Source: an uncultured bacterium (GTDB lineage: Bacteria > Verrucomicrobiota > Kiritimatiellia > PWTM01). Taken from it: a DNA stretch of 64,000 nt. The stretch covers positions 62,001-126,000 of the forward strand of contig CALLFZ010000017.1 of NCBI GenBank assembly GCA_938010045.1. The letters run 5' to 3'. The translations under genes were made by a program, and so were the position numbers. Every line of letters begins with the position of its first letter. The first letter of the stretch is position 1. The notes under the pieces are model-generated. The model had not been told where the DNA came from and ran no database searches. It was given only the letters and a program-made list of their open reading frames with translations. This document shows positions 8,946 to 17,917 of this stretch, in pieces.

Positions 8946-9019
<74 letters not shown>

Positions 9020-9925
9020 CTGGTCGGCTGACCATCTCAGTGGGATGATAACGGATCCCAGTCGCATCGTCAAAACGGGGAAAGGGACTGGGAAACCCGC
9101 GATCGGGGGCGGCCGGTGGATTGAGCGATCTGCGGGTCTGGGACGGCACAATCGAATACGGGTGGGACCATCACATCGAGTATCGATGCATTGCCATGAC
9201 CTTATCCGATCGCACGCCTCTGCCCCGTTGTCCAAGGATGTGGATGAGAGTGGAGTCCGGCGATCCAACGAACTCATGAGCGGGCGTCTCCGTGGACCAA
9301 GTCCATCGCGCTCCTGGCATTCCTCGTAGGATGAAACCACCGCGGGTGCTTGAACAAGACCGAAATGCTCCATCTGCACGGGCGCAATCGATTGCCGGAG
9401 ACGCTAGCCTGACCCGCCCGTACGGATCCCGCAGCAGCGTTGAGCGACGAGCGCGATCTGCCGCGCGGATGGTCCTGGTGGCGCCACGCACGCCGTGAAC
9501 ATGTCGGATTCCGGCGAAAATGACCCAGCAAACCTTGAACATCGCGAGGTTCAACGCGACCTTTGGCACAGACGCTCCTACGGTGATGGCGCCGACGGTG
9601 GCACAGTTGCCACTGTTCGGCCAGGCCGTGGCCCCGCCAGAAAACCTGAAGGTACCGCGAGATGTCCAACAAAAGAGGAAGCCCAAAAGAATTTGACTGA
9701 CGCGCACTTCGAGGTTGTTGGACGACCAGAACCATCCTCGCCCGATCGAGTATCCTTTTGCCGCGCTGAACCGCAACGCTAGAAGTCGTATCTAATTAGA
9801 TGAGAATAGAATACATGTCGGACACAGAATTTGGTTTTCTTTTTTGCGTTTGCATTTTTGCAAAACCGTCATAATACTCAGATCACTTGCGAGATGATGG
9901 CCGAAAACAAGAAAACTTGAGTATG
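9020..9925. other. intergenic stretch without a convincing gene
   Basis: About 0.9 kb between the tRNA and the prepilin promoter. Open frames exist on both strands (for example 9171-9776 minus and 9495-9782 plus), but none has a recognisable domain, codon use like the neighbours, or a good ribosome site. The last 130 bases are clearly AT-rich compared with the rest of the window and hold two perfect palindromes, ATCTAATTAGAT at 9790-9801 and TTTTGCAAAA at 9856-9865. Confidence 0.6.
9843..9866 (+). promoter_or_regulatory. possible enhancer-binding site for the sigma-54 promoter
   Basis: An AT-rich segment with repeated T-rich TTTGC units ending in the perfect palindrome TTTTGCAAAA (9856-9865). 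It lies about 70-95 bases upstream of the -12 element of the sigma-54 promoter, which is where NtrC-family activators usually bind. The link is by position only. Confidence 0.35.
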
Positions 9926-9941
9926 TGGCACTGAAGTTGCT
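9926..9941 (+). promoter_or_regulatory. sigma-54 (RpoN) -24/-12 promoter of the prepilin gene
   Basis: TGGCAC, five bases, then TTGCT. The invariant GG (9927-9928) and GC (9939-9940) are exactly ten bases apart, as the RpoN consensus needs. Transcription would start near 9952, giving a leader of about 24 bases before the ATG at 9976. Many type IV pilin genes use RpoN with an NtrC-type activator. Confidence 0.8.
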
Positions 9942-9975
9942 CCTACCACCAACGACGAACGCGGGAGTGGAAACA

Positions 9976-10632
9976 ATGAAACGCGTTGAGAAGAGCTGTG
10001 CACAACGTGGTTTCACGTTGGTCGAGCTGGCGCTCGTCGCGCTGCTGGTGGCGGTTCTTGCGGCGGCGGCAGTTCCGCTGATGAGCGGCAACCAGACGCG
10101 GGCAATGATGACGGAGGCGGAGGCGGCACTGGGCACTGCCCGTTCGGCGTTGAGGGCGATGGCCGCCGAGACGCGTGCGTACAACCAGTTGCCGACCGGC
10201 GGCAGGCTGGAAGCGGGAATGGCGCTCAGCGAGATTCCGGGGATTCGCGAGACGGAACTCGCCGGGCGCTATTTTCAGGCCAGGGATTATTCGATCCGCG
10301 AAATCGGGGAGACGACGTACGTGATCCAAGCGTTAGGTAGCGAGGGGCCAGTTGAGGGAATACTGATCACGTTAGACCAGGACGGTATATTTACTCGGGG
10401 GCGCGTTCCTCGCAGCGGTGGCGGAACACCACCGCCGGCCGATGATGGAGGCGATGACGGTCCCCCTCCGGTCAACCCACCGGGTCCGCCGCCGAGACCG
10501 CGATTGCCACCCGAACCAGCGCCGGGACCACCGTTTACACCGCCATGGCCGCCAGTGAGACCACCCGGTACGCCGCCGTTCGTGCCCCAGCCGCCGATCG
10601 TTCCGCCGATCGAACCACCGCCGGTCATCTAG
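9976..10632 (+). CDS. type IV prepilin-like protein with proline-rich tail
   Basis: 218 residues from the ATG at 9976, which has GGGAGTGGA upstream. A short positive leader is followed by RGFTLVELALVALLVAVLAA, the prepilin peptidase site and the hydrophobic alpha-1 helix, including the +5 glutamate. Residues of about 35-150 form a small pilin headgroup; from about 152 the chain becomes almost pure Pro/Gly/Arg with PPP runs up to the stop. That long polyproline tail is not part of normal pilins and may span the envelope or bind partners. A sigma-54 promoter lies just upstream. The gene converges on the PL11 lyase 28 bases away. No other pilus genes are adjacent. Confidence 0.85.
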   Translation: MKRVEKSCAQRGFTLVELALVALLVAVLAAAAVPLMSGNQTRAMMTEAEAALGTARSALRAMAAETRAYNQLPTGGRLEAGMALSEIPGIRETELAGRYFQARDYSIREIGETTYVIQALGSEGPVEGILITLDQDGIFTRGRVPRSGGGTPPPADDGGDDGPPPVNPPGPPPRPRLPPEPAPGPPFTPPWPPVRPPGTPPFVPQPPIVPPIEPPPVI

Positions 10633-13195: not shown

Positions 13196-13299
13196 CGACG
13201 ACTCCTTCCGTGGACCGACGCCACCGGCGGTGGCGGCCCGTCATCACCTACTGTATCATGCGCCGGCGGTCCGCACACAACGGACCGGTGGAGATGCCG

Positions 13300-14049
13300 A
13301 TGCTCTGGTGGAGCGAGTGGCTGGTCCGGCCGGTGGTGGCCGACATTCGGCAAGCGTTTCTCGACAGCAACTGGCTTTCGGGAAAACTGATTGTGCTGGT
13401 TCTGATCGTCGCGTCGGTCGGTGCATGGTCGGTGATGTATTCGAAATGGCGCGATTTGCGCCGCGCGAAGCGGGCCTCGGAGGCATTTTGGGCGGCGTTC
13501 CGGCGGGAGACCCATCCACTGGCGCTCTTTTTGAGGAACAAGAAATTCGTGGACAGCCCGCTGTACGCAGTCTACGAGGCGGGCTGCGTCGCGATTGGGG
13601 TCGAGATCGGAGAGGCGGAGCTGCGCGATCTCGGCTCCGACACCATGGGGACCGGGCGGCGGCGCCCCCTTCTGACGCCCTTGCAGATCGAAGTGATCCG
13701 GCGCGTGACGGAGCGGACGGTGGCCGATCAGGCGCTGCTGCTCGAAAGTGGCATGGGATGGCTCATGATCGCGGTCAGCGCCAGCCCCATGCTCGGGCTG
13801 CTCGGTACGGTGTGGGGCGTCCTCGACGCGTTTGGAGCGATGGCGCATCGCGGCGCGGCCAATCTATCGGCGGTGGCGCCGGGCATCTCGGGCGCTCTGC
13901 TCACCACGGTCGTGGGGTTGCTCGTCGCTCTGCCGTCGTCCGTGGGGTACAACGTGCTCGCGGGTCACATCCGAACGCTCGCGGTTCAGATGGACAACTT
14001 TTCGCAGGAATTCGTCGCGGAAGTTCAGCGCGCGTTCTGCCGAGAGTGA
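13300..14049 (+). CDS. exbB: MotA/TolQ/ExbB-type proton channel subunit
   Basis: About 249 residues from the ATG at 13300, chosen because GGTGGAG sits six bases upstream; ATG 13294 and 13258 are alternatives. There are three membrane helices: one near residues 28-47 (LIVLVLIVASVGAW), and two after residue 145 (MGWLMIAVSASPMLGLLGTV and ISGALLTTVVGLLVALPSSV) that form the ExbB/TolQ channel core. With ExbD it would carry protons to drive the TonB-like protein two genes on. Gap to exbD is three bases. Confidence 0.9.
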   Translation: MLWWSEWLVRPVVADIRQAFLDSNWLSGKLIVLVLIVASVGAWSVMYSKWRDLRRAKRASEAFWAAFRRETHPLALFLRNKKFVDSPLYAVYEAGCVAIGVEIGEAELRDLGSDTMGTGRRRPLLTPLQIEVIRRVTERTVADQALLLESGMGWLMIAVSASPMLGLLGTVWGVLDAFGAMAHRGAANLSAVAPGISGALLTTVVGLLVALPSSVGYNVLAGHIRTLAVQMDNFSQEFVAEVQRAFCRE

Positions 14050-14052
14050 GCG

Positions 14053-14466
14053 ATGCCTCGCCGAACGACCATCGTCGCCCTCAGCGAAATCAAGGAAATC
14101 AACCTCACCCCGCTGATTGATCTTACGTTTCTGCTGCTGATCACCTTCATCATCACGTTTCCGCTGATTGAACAGGGCGTGCCGGTGAACCTGCCGCAGG
14201 GCAAAGCGGAGGATCTGCCGCAGCGCGACACGCGTTCGATCACGATCCGGCAGGACGGCTCGATTCACCTGGACCAACGGCCGACCGACATCGCCGCGCT
14301 CGCCGAGGACATGCGCCGGCTCGGCGAGGCCGATCCGGAGATGGTCGTCATGGTTCGGGCCGACGAACGGGTGCCGTATGGCCGTGTGGCCGAGGTGCTG
14401 CGCGTGCTGCACCAGGCGAAGATCCGGCGGCTGGCGCTCGTGCATCGCGCGGAGGAGTCGCGATGA
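14053..14466 (+). CDS. exbD: ExbD/TolR-type energy transduction protein
   Basis: 137 residues. A short cytoplasmic start with IKEINLTPLIDLTFLLLITF carries the channel aspartate (about D23) inside the single membrane helix, followed by a periplasmic domain with the usual RTITI-like beta strand (RSITIRQDGSIHLDQ) and VMVRADERVPYGRV. It partners with the ExbB-type protein upstream. Its stop overlaps the start of the TonB-like gene by four bases. Confidence 0.95.
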   Translation: MPRRTTIVALSEIKEINLTPLIDLTFLLLITFIITFPLIEQGVPVNLPQGKAEDLPQRDTRSITIRQDGSIHLDQRPTDIAALAEDMRRLGEADPEMVVMVRADERVPYGRVAEVLRVLHQAKIRRLALVHRAEESR

Positions 14467-15143
14467 CCGGAGCGCTCGACCGGCGCGTGGTCGCGCGCAG
14501 CGCGGCCGTGCATGCGGCGCTGATCGCGGCCGTTGCCATTTCGGGCATGGTGCGCAGTTGTGTCTACCGCCCCCGACGCTTTGAACCGCTGATCGTGTAC
14601 AACGTGCCCGACGTCGGGATCGTCGCGCCGGCCCCTGCGCCGGCGGCTCCGACTCCGCCCGCGCCGACGCCGCCGAATGTTCGCGACGACATTCCCGAAT
14701 CGCCGCCGAAACCTAAGGTGCAAGTCAGCCGAGTCAAAGTCACGCGACCCGCGCCGACGCCGCCGAAGCCGCCGCCGACGGCGGAGGAATTGAAGCGGCT
14801 GCTCGCGGCGGGGCGGCCGCTGGCGCCCGCAGCGCCGGGCGATGTGCGCGGAGCGGCACCGCCCGATTGGTACCTCGCGCTGGTTCGGAAGGCGTTGTAC
14901 GACGCGTGGGACCAGCCGGGGGGGCTGCGGCCGGACGCTGGACTCCGCGTGATTGCTCAGATTCGGATCGCGCGCGACGGCACCGTGCTGCGGGCCGAGA
15001 CGATCCGCCTGTCGGGTCACTCGGTCCTCGATGCGTCGGTCGAGCGCGCCCTACGGGCGGTCACAAAACTGCCGCCGCTGCCGGATTCTTTTCCGGGTCC
15101 CCACCGCGATTTGCAAATTGCGTTTGAGCTCAGCCAGGAGTAG
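14463..15143 (+). CDS. tonB: TonB-family energy transducer
   Basis: 226 residues. An N-terminal membrane helix (about 10-30, VVARSAAVHAALIAAVAI) is followed by a proline-rich spacer with repeated PAPTPP and PKPP units (about 54-110) and a C-terminal TonB/TolA domain (about 135-226) with DWYLALVRKALYDAW, IARDGTVLRAETI and SVERALRAV. It would couple the inner-membrane proton motive force to outer-membrane receptors. No TonB-dependent receptor lies in the window, so whether it serves Ton or Tol function is open. Confidence 0.88.
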   Translation: MTGALDRRVVARSAAVHAALIAAVAISGMVRSCVYRPRRFEPLIVYNVPDVGIVAPAPAPAAPTPPAPTPPNVRDDIPESPPKPKVQVSRVKVTRPAPTPPKPPPTAEELKRLLAAGRPLAPAAPGDVRGAAPPDWYLALVRKALYDAWDQPGGLRPDAGLRVIAQIRIARDGTVLRAETIRLSGHSVLDASVERALRAVTKLPPLPDSFPGPHRDLQIAFELSQE

Positions 15144-15937: not shown

Positions 15938-16717
15938 TTACTTCCGAGTTGCGAACCAGCGATCCGATCGAGGCTCGTCGAGGTAGCCGGCCAACCCATC
16001 GCAGCGTGGATCGAGTGCGTGAGGTTCGAACGTCCGCAGGCTGCCATCCACCAACGTGAGGTTGGCGCGTCGGCCGTGCCGAAAGTGGGTATGCGGCGGC
16101 GGCAAACTATCGAGCACGTACCACTCTTCGAGCATGGGGTGGTCCGGCGACGCCGGCGCCTGCCACGTGTTGATTTGAATGCAGTCGCCCCACGCGACGG
16201 TGTCGCCGGGCCGCTGCACGTCCTCGAGCGTGAACACCCCCATGCGCTGCGTGCCGGGCAGATCGGCGAGCAGATATCCATTGATGCCATAGCCGTAGCT
16301 CGCGATGGTGAATTTTCGCTTGAAGTATGGCGCACGGACCGGCAACGCGGGGCAGATTTCGACGCCGCCATGGGGCAGATACGGCGCCAGGCGCGCGCGG
16401 CTCTTGTCCAGCGGTCGTTGTCCTTCCGGGCCGCCGGCCCCCTCTTCGAATCCCCAGTACCACAGCACGCCGTCCGGCAGGTGTTCGCGAAACGGAAAGA
16501 ATCGGCCGCCGTGATCCAGCAGGTACCGAGTCCACGCCGTATGGAGCTGGCGGAGATTCCCCGCGCATGCCGCGCGCACTGCCGCCTGGCGGGCGCGCGC
16601 GAGCGCTGGCCCCAGCGCCAATCCAAGCAGGGCGCTGAGCACCGCGATCACCACGAGCGTTTCGAGCAGGGTCGCGCCGGCGCCGTCGCGTCGGTCACTG
16701 GGAAGACCGATGCTCAT
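15938..16717 (-). CDS. prepilin-like protein with DUF1559-style body
   Basis: 259 residues. GATLLETLVVIAVLSALLG (about 14-32) is a prepilin N-terminus with the +5 glutamate and a hydrophobic helix, but the usual GFTLVE is changed to GATLLE. The rest follows the pattern of the very large prepilin-like families of Verrucomicrobiota/Lentisphaerota: CAGNLRQLHTAWTRYLLDHGG, an ICPALP segment, and near the end H-rich HTHFRHGRRANLTLVDGSL. Such proteins are presumed to enter a type II secretion or pseudopilus system and are usually of unknown function. Its start overlaps the end of the PEP-CTERM gene upstream. Confidence 0.85.
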   Translation of the reverse strand: MSIGLPSDRRDGAGATLLETLVVIAVLSALLGLALGPALARARQAAVRAACAGNLRQLHTAWTRYLLDHGGRFFPFREHLPDGVLWYWGFEEGAGGPEGQRPLDKSRARLAPYLPHGGVEICPALPVRAPYFKRKFTIASYGYGINGYLLADLPGTQRMGVFTLEDVQRPGDTVAWGDCIQINTWQAPASPDHPMLEEWYVLDSLPPPHTHFRHGRRANLTLVDGSLRTFEPHALDPRCDGLAGYLDEPRSDRWFATRK

Positions 16718-17537
16718 CGTCCCCCGTCGGTTCGCGGCGCCGACGACCGAGGGCCGCCGCGGCGATGCCCGTCACGAGCAGGATGACCGTGGCGGGCTCC
16801 GGAATCACCTCATACTTGAGCTGGTCCATCGCCACGTAGGTCGGCGTGTTGATGCCCCACAGACCCACATCGCTCGAATCCAGCGTGAACTCGAGCCGCC
16901 GCACGGTCGGGCCGAAGCTCGTGAGATCCATCCACGTCCACGCCGAGATCACATAGTCGTGAGCGGAATCCGCGAACCGGTAGTCGGCCAGATAGAACGT
17001 GTTCGTTCCGATCAGGCTGGACGCCGCGTCGTACGCCGCGACATAGACGACGAACCAATCGGGGTCGGTGCCCGTCGGCCCGCCGAACTTTTTCACCAGT
17101 CCCATGCCGCCGTCATCCCCGTCGCGGACGGCCAGACCCGCATAGGTCGTATTGTTCAGGTACAGGCCGTGGACCTGCACGTCGGTGGGGAACAGCATCA
17201 CGAGATCGGGACCGAGGGAGAACCCGTCGTCAAAACCCACCAGATAGTGCGTGGTACCCTCGGCGCCATTGCCCGAGAACGACGAAAACTGGTTGAGGTA
17301 GCCCGGCGTCGTCGGATCGGTCCAGGTCGAGACCGCGAACCCATTCCAGCTTGTGAACGTGCCCCACGACGTCCAACTGTTCTGGAACACGATTCCGCCG
17401 GCCGTGAACCCACCGGTGTAGGGGAGGGCGGAGTCGATCGGCAGACCGAAGCTTTCGAAGTCCACCGTGATCACCGCGGCGCCGCAGGGCACGGCGCCCA
17501 CCACCGCCGCCAACGCGGCCGCACACATGAGCTTCAT
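16695..17537 (-). CDS. PEP-CTERM sorted surface protein
   Basis: 280 residues from the ATG at 17537 (AGGAG eight bases upstream). A signal peptide (MKLMCAAALAAVVGAVPCGA) precedes a beta-rich extracellular domain of about 220 residues with DFESFGLP and a DUF4465-like texture (WNGFAVS, NTFYLADYRF, WMDLTSFG). The C-terminus is a clear exosortase signal: VIPEPATVILLVTGIAAAA followed by GRRRRE. Such proteins are cut and sorted by exosortase/EpsH, usually in EPS-producing bacteria. No exosortase is in this window. A long in-frame extension to 17618 lacks a leader and is rejected. Confidence 0.9.
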   Translation of the reverse strand: MKLMCAAALAAVVGAVPCGAAVITVDFESFGLPIDSALPYTGGFTAGGIVFQNSWTSWGTFTSWNGFAVSTWTDPTTPGYLNQFSSFSGNGAEGTTHYLVGFDDGFSLGPDLVMLFPTDVQVHGLYLNNTTYAGLAVRDGDDGGMGLVKKFGGPTGTDPDWFVVYVAAYDAASSLIGTNTFYLADYRFADSAHDYVISAWTWMDLTSFGPTVRRLEFTLDSSDVGLWGINTPTYVAMDQLKYEVIPEPATVILLVTGIAAAALGRRRREPTGDDEHRSSQ

Positions 17538-17917
17538 CGCGTCGTCTCCTGTTCGCGAGGGAGGCGGTCTGCCTCGTGTCCGGAGACGACGCGCCGCTCC
17601 GCGGCGCGGCCATGCCACCCGACATGGCGATCCCGGTTCCGAACGCGGGCCGAAACCGCCGCACCCGGGCTCGTCTTCTGGCTTCCGGCTTCCTACTCTT
17701 CCGCCTTCCCGCCCGACCGCCCGCGAAGTCTCGCGAACCGCGTCTGGCAGTGGCCGTTGGAATTTCGCATCCGGTTACAGCGGCGCGACCGCGTCCGATT
17801 TTCACGGACTTCCGTTCGCCCGGGCGCCACAGTACCCTCAAAACACGGTCATGTTGGCACGTGCGGACCCCGCGTGTCAATGCGCATCGGCGATGCGGCG
17901 ACCCGATTGTGCGATGA
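17538..17917. other. intergenic region upstream of the PEP-CTERM gene
   Basis: About 380 bases between the PEP-CTERM start and the purU stop. Only shadow frames are present, none with a recognisable product. It must contain the promoter of the PEP-CTERM gene and the end of the purU transcript; no clear hairpin-plus-T-run terminator is visible. Confidence 0.55.

Follow-up and report, generated by a model that had tools for sequence, protein, structure and literature searches.

A stretch of 64,000 nucleotides from one contig of an uncultured bacterium of the class Kiritimatiellia, referred to here as the window, carries a gene in which a type IV prepilin signal, a long proline-rich C-terminal tail and an upstream site of the sigma-54 type come together. 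The question raised by this locus is what such a tailed pilin could do, and by which signals its gene would be switched on. The reading preferred here, which is considered rather probable, is that the gene encodes an accessory pilin that is turned on with the main pilus through RpoN and an enhancer-binding protein and adds a stiff polyproline spike. The features on which the argument is built are collected in Table 1.

Table 1. Features of the tailed pilin locus; positions refer to the window unless a contig or locus is named.
Feature	Position	Strand	Basis
Adjacent genes for a secretin, a T2SSE ATPase and a T2SSF platform (GspD-E-F-like)	L188:7986-13200, contig C17 ~52.0-57.2 kb		Pfam
tRNA-Gly, far side of the accessory interval	8946..9019	-	ARAGORN, synteny
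Activator-like element CGTTTGCATTTTTGCAAAAC, imperfect inverted repeat	9847..9866	+	pattern search, spacing, shuffles
Predicted sigma-54 (-24/-12) promoter TGGCACTGAAGTTGCT	9926..9941	+	direct reading; like sites at the C20 operon and in four relatives
Prepilin core, residues 1-142	9976..10401	+	PF07963, alignment with 18 family members, structure model
Proline-rich tail, residues 143-218 (76 aa)	10402..10629	+	composition, model, tail of like type in G003

The gene runs from an ATG at 9976 to a stop codon ending at 10632 and encodes a protein of 218 amino acids. Its N-terminus begins with the leader MKRVEKSCAQRG, followed by a cleavage site between G12 and F13 and by E17, which is position 5 of the mature protein. 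A short basic leader, a G/F site, E5 and a hydrophobic helix are all present, as in a type IV prepilin. The Pfam model PF07963 scores 23.3 bits (cut-off 21.2) and TIGR02532 scores 22.4 bits (cut-off 16.3), in agreement with an earlier note on this DNA, which had called the product a prepilin. In both this protein and its tailed counterpart in the related genome G003, the N-methylation motif alone exceeds a Pfam cut-off. The earlier note had also stated that the protein lacks a normal pilin headgroup, a description that the family alignment contradicts: the core is an ordinary pilin of its own lineage with a normal headgroup, and the tail is added after it. An AlphaFold2 model built from six sequences (mean pLDDT 72, pTM 0.47) predicts a helix at residues 15-66 and strands at residues 105-132 of this core. 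Foldseek with this model found no match under E 0.001, the first being a Thermus competence pilin at E 0.17, and the family profile matched 21 PDB sequences, including "Geopilin domain 1", PilA and GspG chains, mostly through the N-terminal helix. For the pilin fold, sequence gives better support than the model does.

The tailed pilin is a paralogue of three tandem pilins on contig C20 of the same genome (51, 56 and 45% identity), and its core aligns along the whole length with these pilus-operon proteins. The C20 operon continues after the pilins with a PilM-like gene (TIGR01175, 60.1 bits against a cut-off of 133; PF11104, 26.2 bits against 27) and two genes that are pilN/pilO-like by order and size and match no pil family, followed by genes for smaller prepilin-like proteins and for larger membrane-anchored ones, named by eye. 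In genomes of three other families of the class (G017, G044 and G021), the same pilin follows pilT, a secretin gene, pilB and pilC; in G044 and G021 it stands between pilC and a gene resembling pilM by eye, and the G017 contig ends after the pilin. The tailed pilin is close in sequence to pilins that lie beside such machinery, and its membership is given by sequence and not by location. The best matches of these pilT, secretin, pilB and pilC genes in the genome under study form one cluster on contig C3 (L190), with 43-61% identity for G017 and G044 and, for the G021 secretin, two pieces of 33 and 47%. Over the Pfam cut-offs, the C3 cluster contains T2SSE twice, a secretin and T2SSF, as a PilB/PilC/PilT/secretin set does. 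The pilus system of this genome is therefore split over three contigs: C3 has the motor and secretin, C20 the pilins and the PilM-like gene, and C17, the contig of the window, the tailed pilin. In a relative, G002, the third pilin of the operon (L052:9626-10163) appears to be split over two frames and may be broken or misassembled.

The earlier note had described the gene as standing alone. No pilus gene adjoins it, and to this extent the description is correct; however, sister pilins exist in the C20 operon, and the GspD-E-F-like trio of Table 1 is found about 15 kb upstream, a short way beyond the edge of the window. The presence of a secretin, an ATPase and a GspF-like platform on the same contig suggests another assignment, namely that the tailed protein is a pseudopilin of this trio and works outside the pilus. 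It shares with GspG/PulG proteins the N-terminal helix and the general pilin plan, and the GspG chain 5wda is among the sequences matched by the family profile. Nevertheless, the GspG model TIGR01710 gives 28.1 bits, far below its equivalog cut-off of 88.85, over residues 11-70 only. The closest relatives of the protein are the pilus-operon pilins, whose equivalents in other families follow pilT, secretin, pilB and pilC, and a pseudopilin role is considered very unlikely. In Akkermansia muciniphila, which probably belongs to the same phylum, Amuc_1098-1102 is described as a pili-like cluster in the available part of PMC5332112. The PilM-like protein of C20 resembles the family model of Amuc_1101 weakly (32.6 bits, cut-off 650); the Akkermansia cluster differs in that the same part of that paper describes neither a tailed pilin nor a sigma-54 promoter.

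The predicted promoter begins 50 nt before the ATG, which would place the start of transcription near 9952. It matches the consensus TGGCACN5TTGCW exactly and has the exact GG-N10-GC spacing, so the blocks, spacing and coordinates given in the earlier note were read correctly; it is also the only site in the window that scores at least 14 of 15. The exact consensus is not enriched genome-wide, with four sites in 3,215,806 bases against five for the reversed control. The evidence that the site exceeds chance comes from its position and from a second exact site before a paralogous prepilin, not from the count: at genome density, P is ~2e-4 for an exact match on the correct strand in the 300 nt ahead of a gene, and another of the four exact sites starts 35 nt ahead of the first C20 pilin. 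The exact sites at C34:135106, where the sequence looks coding by eye, and at C17:6129, where a simple gene caller gives no same-strand gene just downstream, were taken as chance occurrences. When the region between -300 and +30 nt relative to the chosen start was scanned for all 23 prepilin matches of the genome, two reached at least 13 of 15 (the tailed gene and the first C20 pilin, both with 15), and the remaining 21 scored 12 or less.

This arrangement is also found in relatives. The first operon pilin is preceded by a site scoring 14-15 in all five genomes of the family whose operon was inspected (the genome under study, G001, G002, G003 and G006). By chance, a score of at least 14 is expected in 85 nt with a probability of ~7e-4 and a score of at least 12 with ~0.05, on a background of 601,550 positions of DNA from the genome under study on both strands, small overlaps included. 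Outside the family, the pilins of G017, G044, G021 and G049 have no site above 12 of 15, and the sigma-54 wiring is therefore taken as a trait of the genome family and not of the pilin. In the 300 nt before the pilT cluster on C3, no sigma-54 site was found (best score 10 of 15). The lack of genome-wide over-representation of the exact consensus could be explained if the likeness to a sigma-54 site went unused and a sigma-70-type polymerase transcribed the tailed gene. This is highly improbable when set against the position of the site, the second copy before the paralogous operon, the conservation in relatives and the common upstream element.

The upstream element contains the AT-rich palindrome TTTTGCAAAA (9856-9865), which the earlier note had proposed as the binding site of an activator, and is located 59 bp before the -24 box. 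The pattern GTTTNNCATTTTTGNNAAAC, at two mismatches or fewer, is found twice in the 3.2-Mb genome, each time before a pilin promoter: C20:15329-15348 with one mismatch, and C17:71847-71866, the element of the window, with two. At three mismatches, two further places are added, along with the C20 place again on the other strand, and the reversed control gives three matches. These promoters are the very ones in which the element was first noticed by eye, and the G001 row is nearly a self-match, the reference 20-mer having been read there. The genome-wide specificity is the stronger argument, because the compared promoters themselves revealed the element.

Among the relatives, the matches with the fewest mismatches lie before the pilus operon in G001 (one mismatch) and G006 (two) and before the tailed gene in G003 (one), where the pilus operon is also preceded by a match with three. 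At three mismatches or fewer, the matches and those of the reversed control number 6 and 5 in G001, 1 and 1 in G002, 3 and 10 in G003, and 1 and 0 in G006. Four further family members, in which the query with both tailed proteins found nothing, have scattered matches of two to three mismatches (G004, 6 against 3 in the control; G005, 15 against 17; G007, 1 against 1; G008, 9 against 3). In several relatives, such as G003 and G005, the matches do not outnumber those of the control, so that the information lies in where the best matches fall and not in how many there are. In dinucleotide shuffles, the best score was reached 4 times per 1000 for the tailed gene and 0 times for the G003 tailed gene; for the operons, the numbers were 0 in the genome under study, 0 in G001, 6 in G002, 5 in G003 and 0 in G006. 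The gap between element and -24 box is 71 bp for the G003 tailed gene, and for the operons 71 bp in the genome under study, 72 in G001, 74 in G002, 59 in G003 and 72 in G006, with the element in reverse orientation in G002 and G003. In four relatives, the pilus operon is likewise preceded by the promoter and, with less regularity, by the element. The reading of the palindrome as an activator site is strengthened by an element that is common to the pilus operon of the same genome and, less regularly, to those of relatives. The sole match of the genome-wide pattern in G002 (G002:C36:13058-13077, L256; three mismatches) lies about 100 bp from the ortholog of the lyase gene that neighbours the tailed pilin in the window; there is no pilin at this place, which is not that of the G002 operon, and the match may be due to chance.

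One RpoN is encoded in the genome (PF04552, one match), and enhancer-binding proteins are represented by three strong matches to PF00158 and three weak ones. The strong matches are a NifA-like protein (C34), a response regulator with an adjoining kinase (C3) and a response regulator (C8). These genes, together with the promoter common to the pilus operon, reinforce the earlier sigma-54 reading. A blast comparison of the three activators with eight family members, which took in 23 of 25 loci and left out one each of G001 and G006 for want of a readable frame, showed that the distribution of none of them follows the pilus operon; their relatives occur in family genomes both with and without the pilin operon. 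Apart from the tailed gene, both signals were found in the genome at the pilus operon alone under the thresholds applied. Co-production with the pilus is probable because the promoter and the control site are common only to the main pilus genes, and the proposed regulation of the tailed pilin is supported by sequence to this degree. An NtrC-type activator would bind to the AT-rich inverted repeat, which lies some 60-70 bp ahead of the -24/-12 box, and the activated RpoN polymerase would transcribe the tailed pilin gene together with the pilus operon.

A similar design is known from the PilS-PilR system of Pseudomonas aeruginosa and others. In the available part of PMC6058289, PilR is said to work together with sigma-54 at the promoter of pilA, and further PilR-dependent genes are reported. 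PilA under PilS-PilR resembles the present case in that a pilin gene has a -24/-12 promoter with an activator site upstream of it. In contrast, the gene at the present locus is an additional, tailed pilin located apart from the operon, and there are three candidate activators. The 20-bp element was derived in this analysis.

The tail contains 35 P, 9 G, 6 V and 5 R among its 76 residues. The earlier note had described the last 65 or so residues as almost all Pro, Gly and Arg; the enrichment is real, and "almost all" is too strong for a content of 63% (32 P, 6 G and 3 R). In the AlphaFold2 model, the tail is nearly without secondary structure, with a single three-residue strand at its start. 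The G+C content at codon positions 1, 2 and 3 is 0.82, 0.74 and 0.59 in the tail and 0.64, 0.50 and 0.73 in the core, so that the third position is the lowest of the three in the tail and the highest in the core. Heavy use of Pro and Gly codons accounts for positions 1 and 2 of the tail and does not explain the lower position 3. A frameshift or misread frame was rejected as the source of the tail, as the G003 counterpart has a like tail in the same frame; the contrast in codon-position G+C stands as a sign to the contrary. No LPXTG motif is present in the whole protein. Another prepilin of the genome (C38:60456-60533, L065) is also Pro-rich at its end, with 16 Pro in the last 60 residues, and is the only other one among the 23 with more than 9 Pro there.

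A polyproline rod rises by 3.1 Å per residue. For the tailed pilin, the proposed steps after transcription are as follows. Prepilin peptidase would cut the prepilin after G12, PilB and PilC would incorporate the core as a minority subunit of the pilus, and the tail, as a polyproline rod of up to ~20 nm, would protrude from the fibre or its tip and could serve as a spacer or a ligand-binding spike. In the available part of PMC12288463, minor pilins are said to be able to enter the filament and define its properties. This filament-joining role is the one proposed for the tailed pilin, and no polyproline tail is mentioned in that part of the paper. Among the titles and opening lines of abstracts found in the open-access literature, with subscription journals mostly outside it, none describes a type IV pilin with such a Pro-rich tail.

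A rod of ~20 nm would also be of the order of a periplasm, and the tail could instead be a periplasmic or wall tether, with the pilin retained at the base of the fibre or in the membrane while the rod binds peptidoglycan or the secretin. The G003 tail keeps the same plan of a Gly-rich linker followed by a Pro-rich end, and Pro-rich segments are known as wall spacers, for example in staphylococcal SdrG (available part of PMC7616799). The wall-spanning region of SdrG resembles the tail as a low-complexity Pro-rich rod ending a surface protein; it differs in carrying an LPXTG anchor according to the same part of PMC7616799, while here the rod ends a pilin that has no such motif. Against the tether, Pfam shows no wall-binding domain in either tailed protein, and the core aligns over its full length with the pilins of the C20 pilus operon. 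A wall or periplasmic tether is judged unlikely, and it is to a similar degree doubtful that the tailed pilin regulates or anchors the pilus rather than decorating it. We infer that display on the fibre is to be preferred over the stiff, possibly wall-spanning tail suggested in the earlier note.

The distribution of the tailed gene is narrow. A search of 58 genomes (the one under study included) with the single protein gave matches in 51 at E 0.001, mostly to the prepilin N-terminus; in G003 only did the match extend without a break across core and tail (residues 9-215), and the rows of G055 (residues 7-198) and G037 (139-211) both cross a stop. With both tailed proteins as the query, 43 of 345 genomes of the class (again including the one under study) matched at 1e-12. 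Alignment through the tail was restricted to the genome under study and G003 among the 345, the best eight candidates being scored in nearly all genomes, and on the same basis all other rows past profile position 153 cross a stop codon. A tailed counterpart was found in one of three genomes of the same genus. The G003 gene (L053:4299-4979, 226 aa) has a Ser/Gly linker and then a Pro-rich end, and it lies 3.2 kb before the G003 pilus operon, with neighbours that differ from those in the window. Its element has one mismatch, and its -24/-12 box, TGGCGTAGTATCTGCT, is weak (12 of 15, P ~0.05 in 85 nt).

The earlier note had named a tail that is absent or frame-shifted in close relatives as the finding that would speak against its proposal, and conservation of the tail as the point to check. 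The outcome is mixed, since the tail is in frame in a second species, G003, and the gene is missing at the G001 site and was not found in G002 or G006 with the two-protein query. By its neighbour proteins, G001 is the closest relative, with 91% identity for PhoH and 73% for the lyase, compared with 58-60% for the lyase in G002, G003 and G006. In G001, PhoH, tRNA-Gly and the lyase stand in the same order without a pilin, and the distance between the PhoH and lyase frames is 287 bp against 1719 bp in the genome under study. The tailed gene was therefore either gained in this genome or lost in G001. The 956 bases before the tailed gene have no match in G001, G002, G003 or G006, and none of the four frames between tRNA-Gly and the promoter matches a Pfam family at E 0.01. 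Window positions 9344-9557 are 77% like C47:1865-2082 of the same genome, a partial repeat of 214 bases that is perhaps a repeat remnant.

In a tree of 20 rows, the tailed gene has the longest end branch (0.85 changes per column). The G003 gene groups with the first operon pilins (94/96), the tailed gene of the window with the second ones (81/93). Forcing the two tailed genes together lowers the log-likelihood by 5.55 units, a loss too small for rejection (p-AU 0.259), and the tail may have arisen once or twice. The long end branch fits relaxed constraint and counts against the accessory-pilin reading. It agrees with a decaying duplicate, that is, a copy that moved beside a tRNA gene, kept its promoter, acquired its tail by low-complexity read-through and has no function. 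The patchy occurrence among G001, G002 and G006, the reversed order of third-position G+C between tail and core, and the lack of Pfam families in the preceding frames point in the same direction. Opposed to this are the open frame, the intact prepilin signal, the exact promoter, the activator-like element and the in-frame tailed counterpart in G003 with an element of its own. On balance, functionless decay is an improbable account of the gene.

The tailed pilin is genuine and well wired, an ordinary pilin with an unusual extension, and the system is not of a new kind. The sequences show the prepilin, its paralogy, the promoter, the common element and the in-frame tail of a second species, whereas RpoN dependence in the cell, binding by one of the activators, incorporation into the fibre and the task of the tail are inferences from them. 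A wider form of the accessory-pilin reading can be offered tentatively, in which the sigma-54-controlled pilus has a tunable coat: an interchangeable accessory pilin would carry a spike that alters the fibre surface and with it adhesion or spacing. It is likewise conceivable, though doubtful, that the spike gene comes and goes without regard to the machinery, into which it is wired by its own copy of the enhancer and promoter. For a little-studied lineage, the locus provides a clear and testable two-promoter regulon made up of one RpoN, three candidate activators and two sites. It is also a natural example of a type IV pilin with a polyproline rod as its C-terminal extension. If the subunit enters the fibre, it would show how pili could be decorated with the core pilin unchanged and would offer a route to displaying peptides on a pilus.

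Other genes of the window were recognized by eye. On the plus strand at 13210-15143, ExbB-, ExbD- and Pro-rich TonB-like genes stand in a row. A gene at 16695-17618 on the minus strand encodes a protein with a PEP-CTERM-like end (VIPEPATVILLVTGIAAAALGRRRR); it adjoins a prepilin-like gene at 15938-16717.
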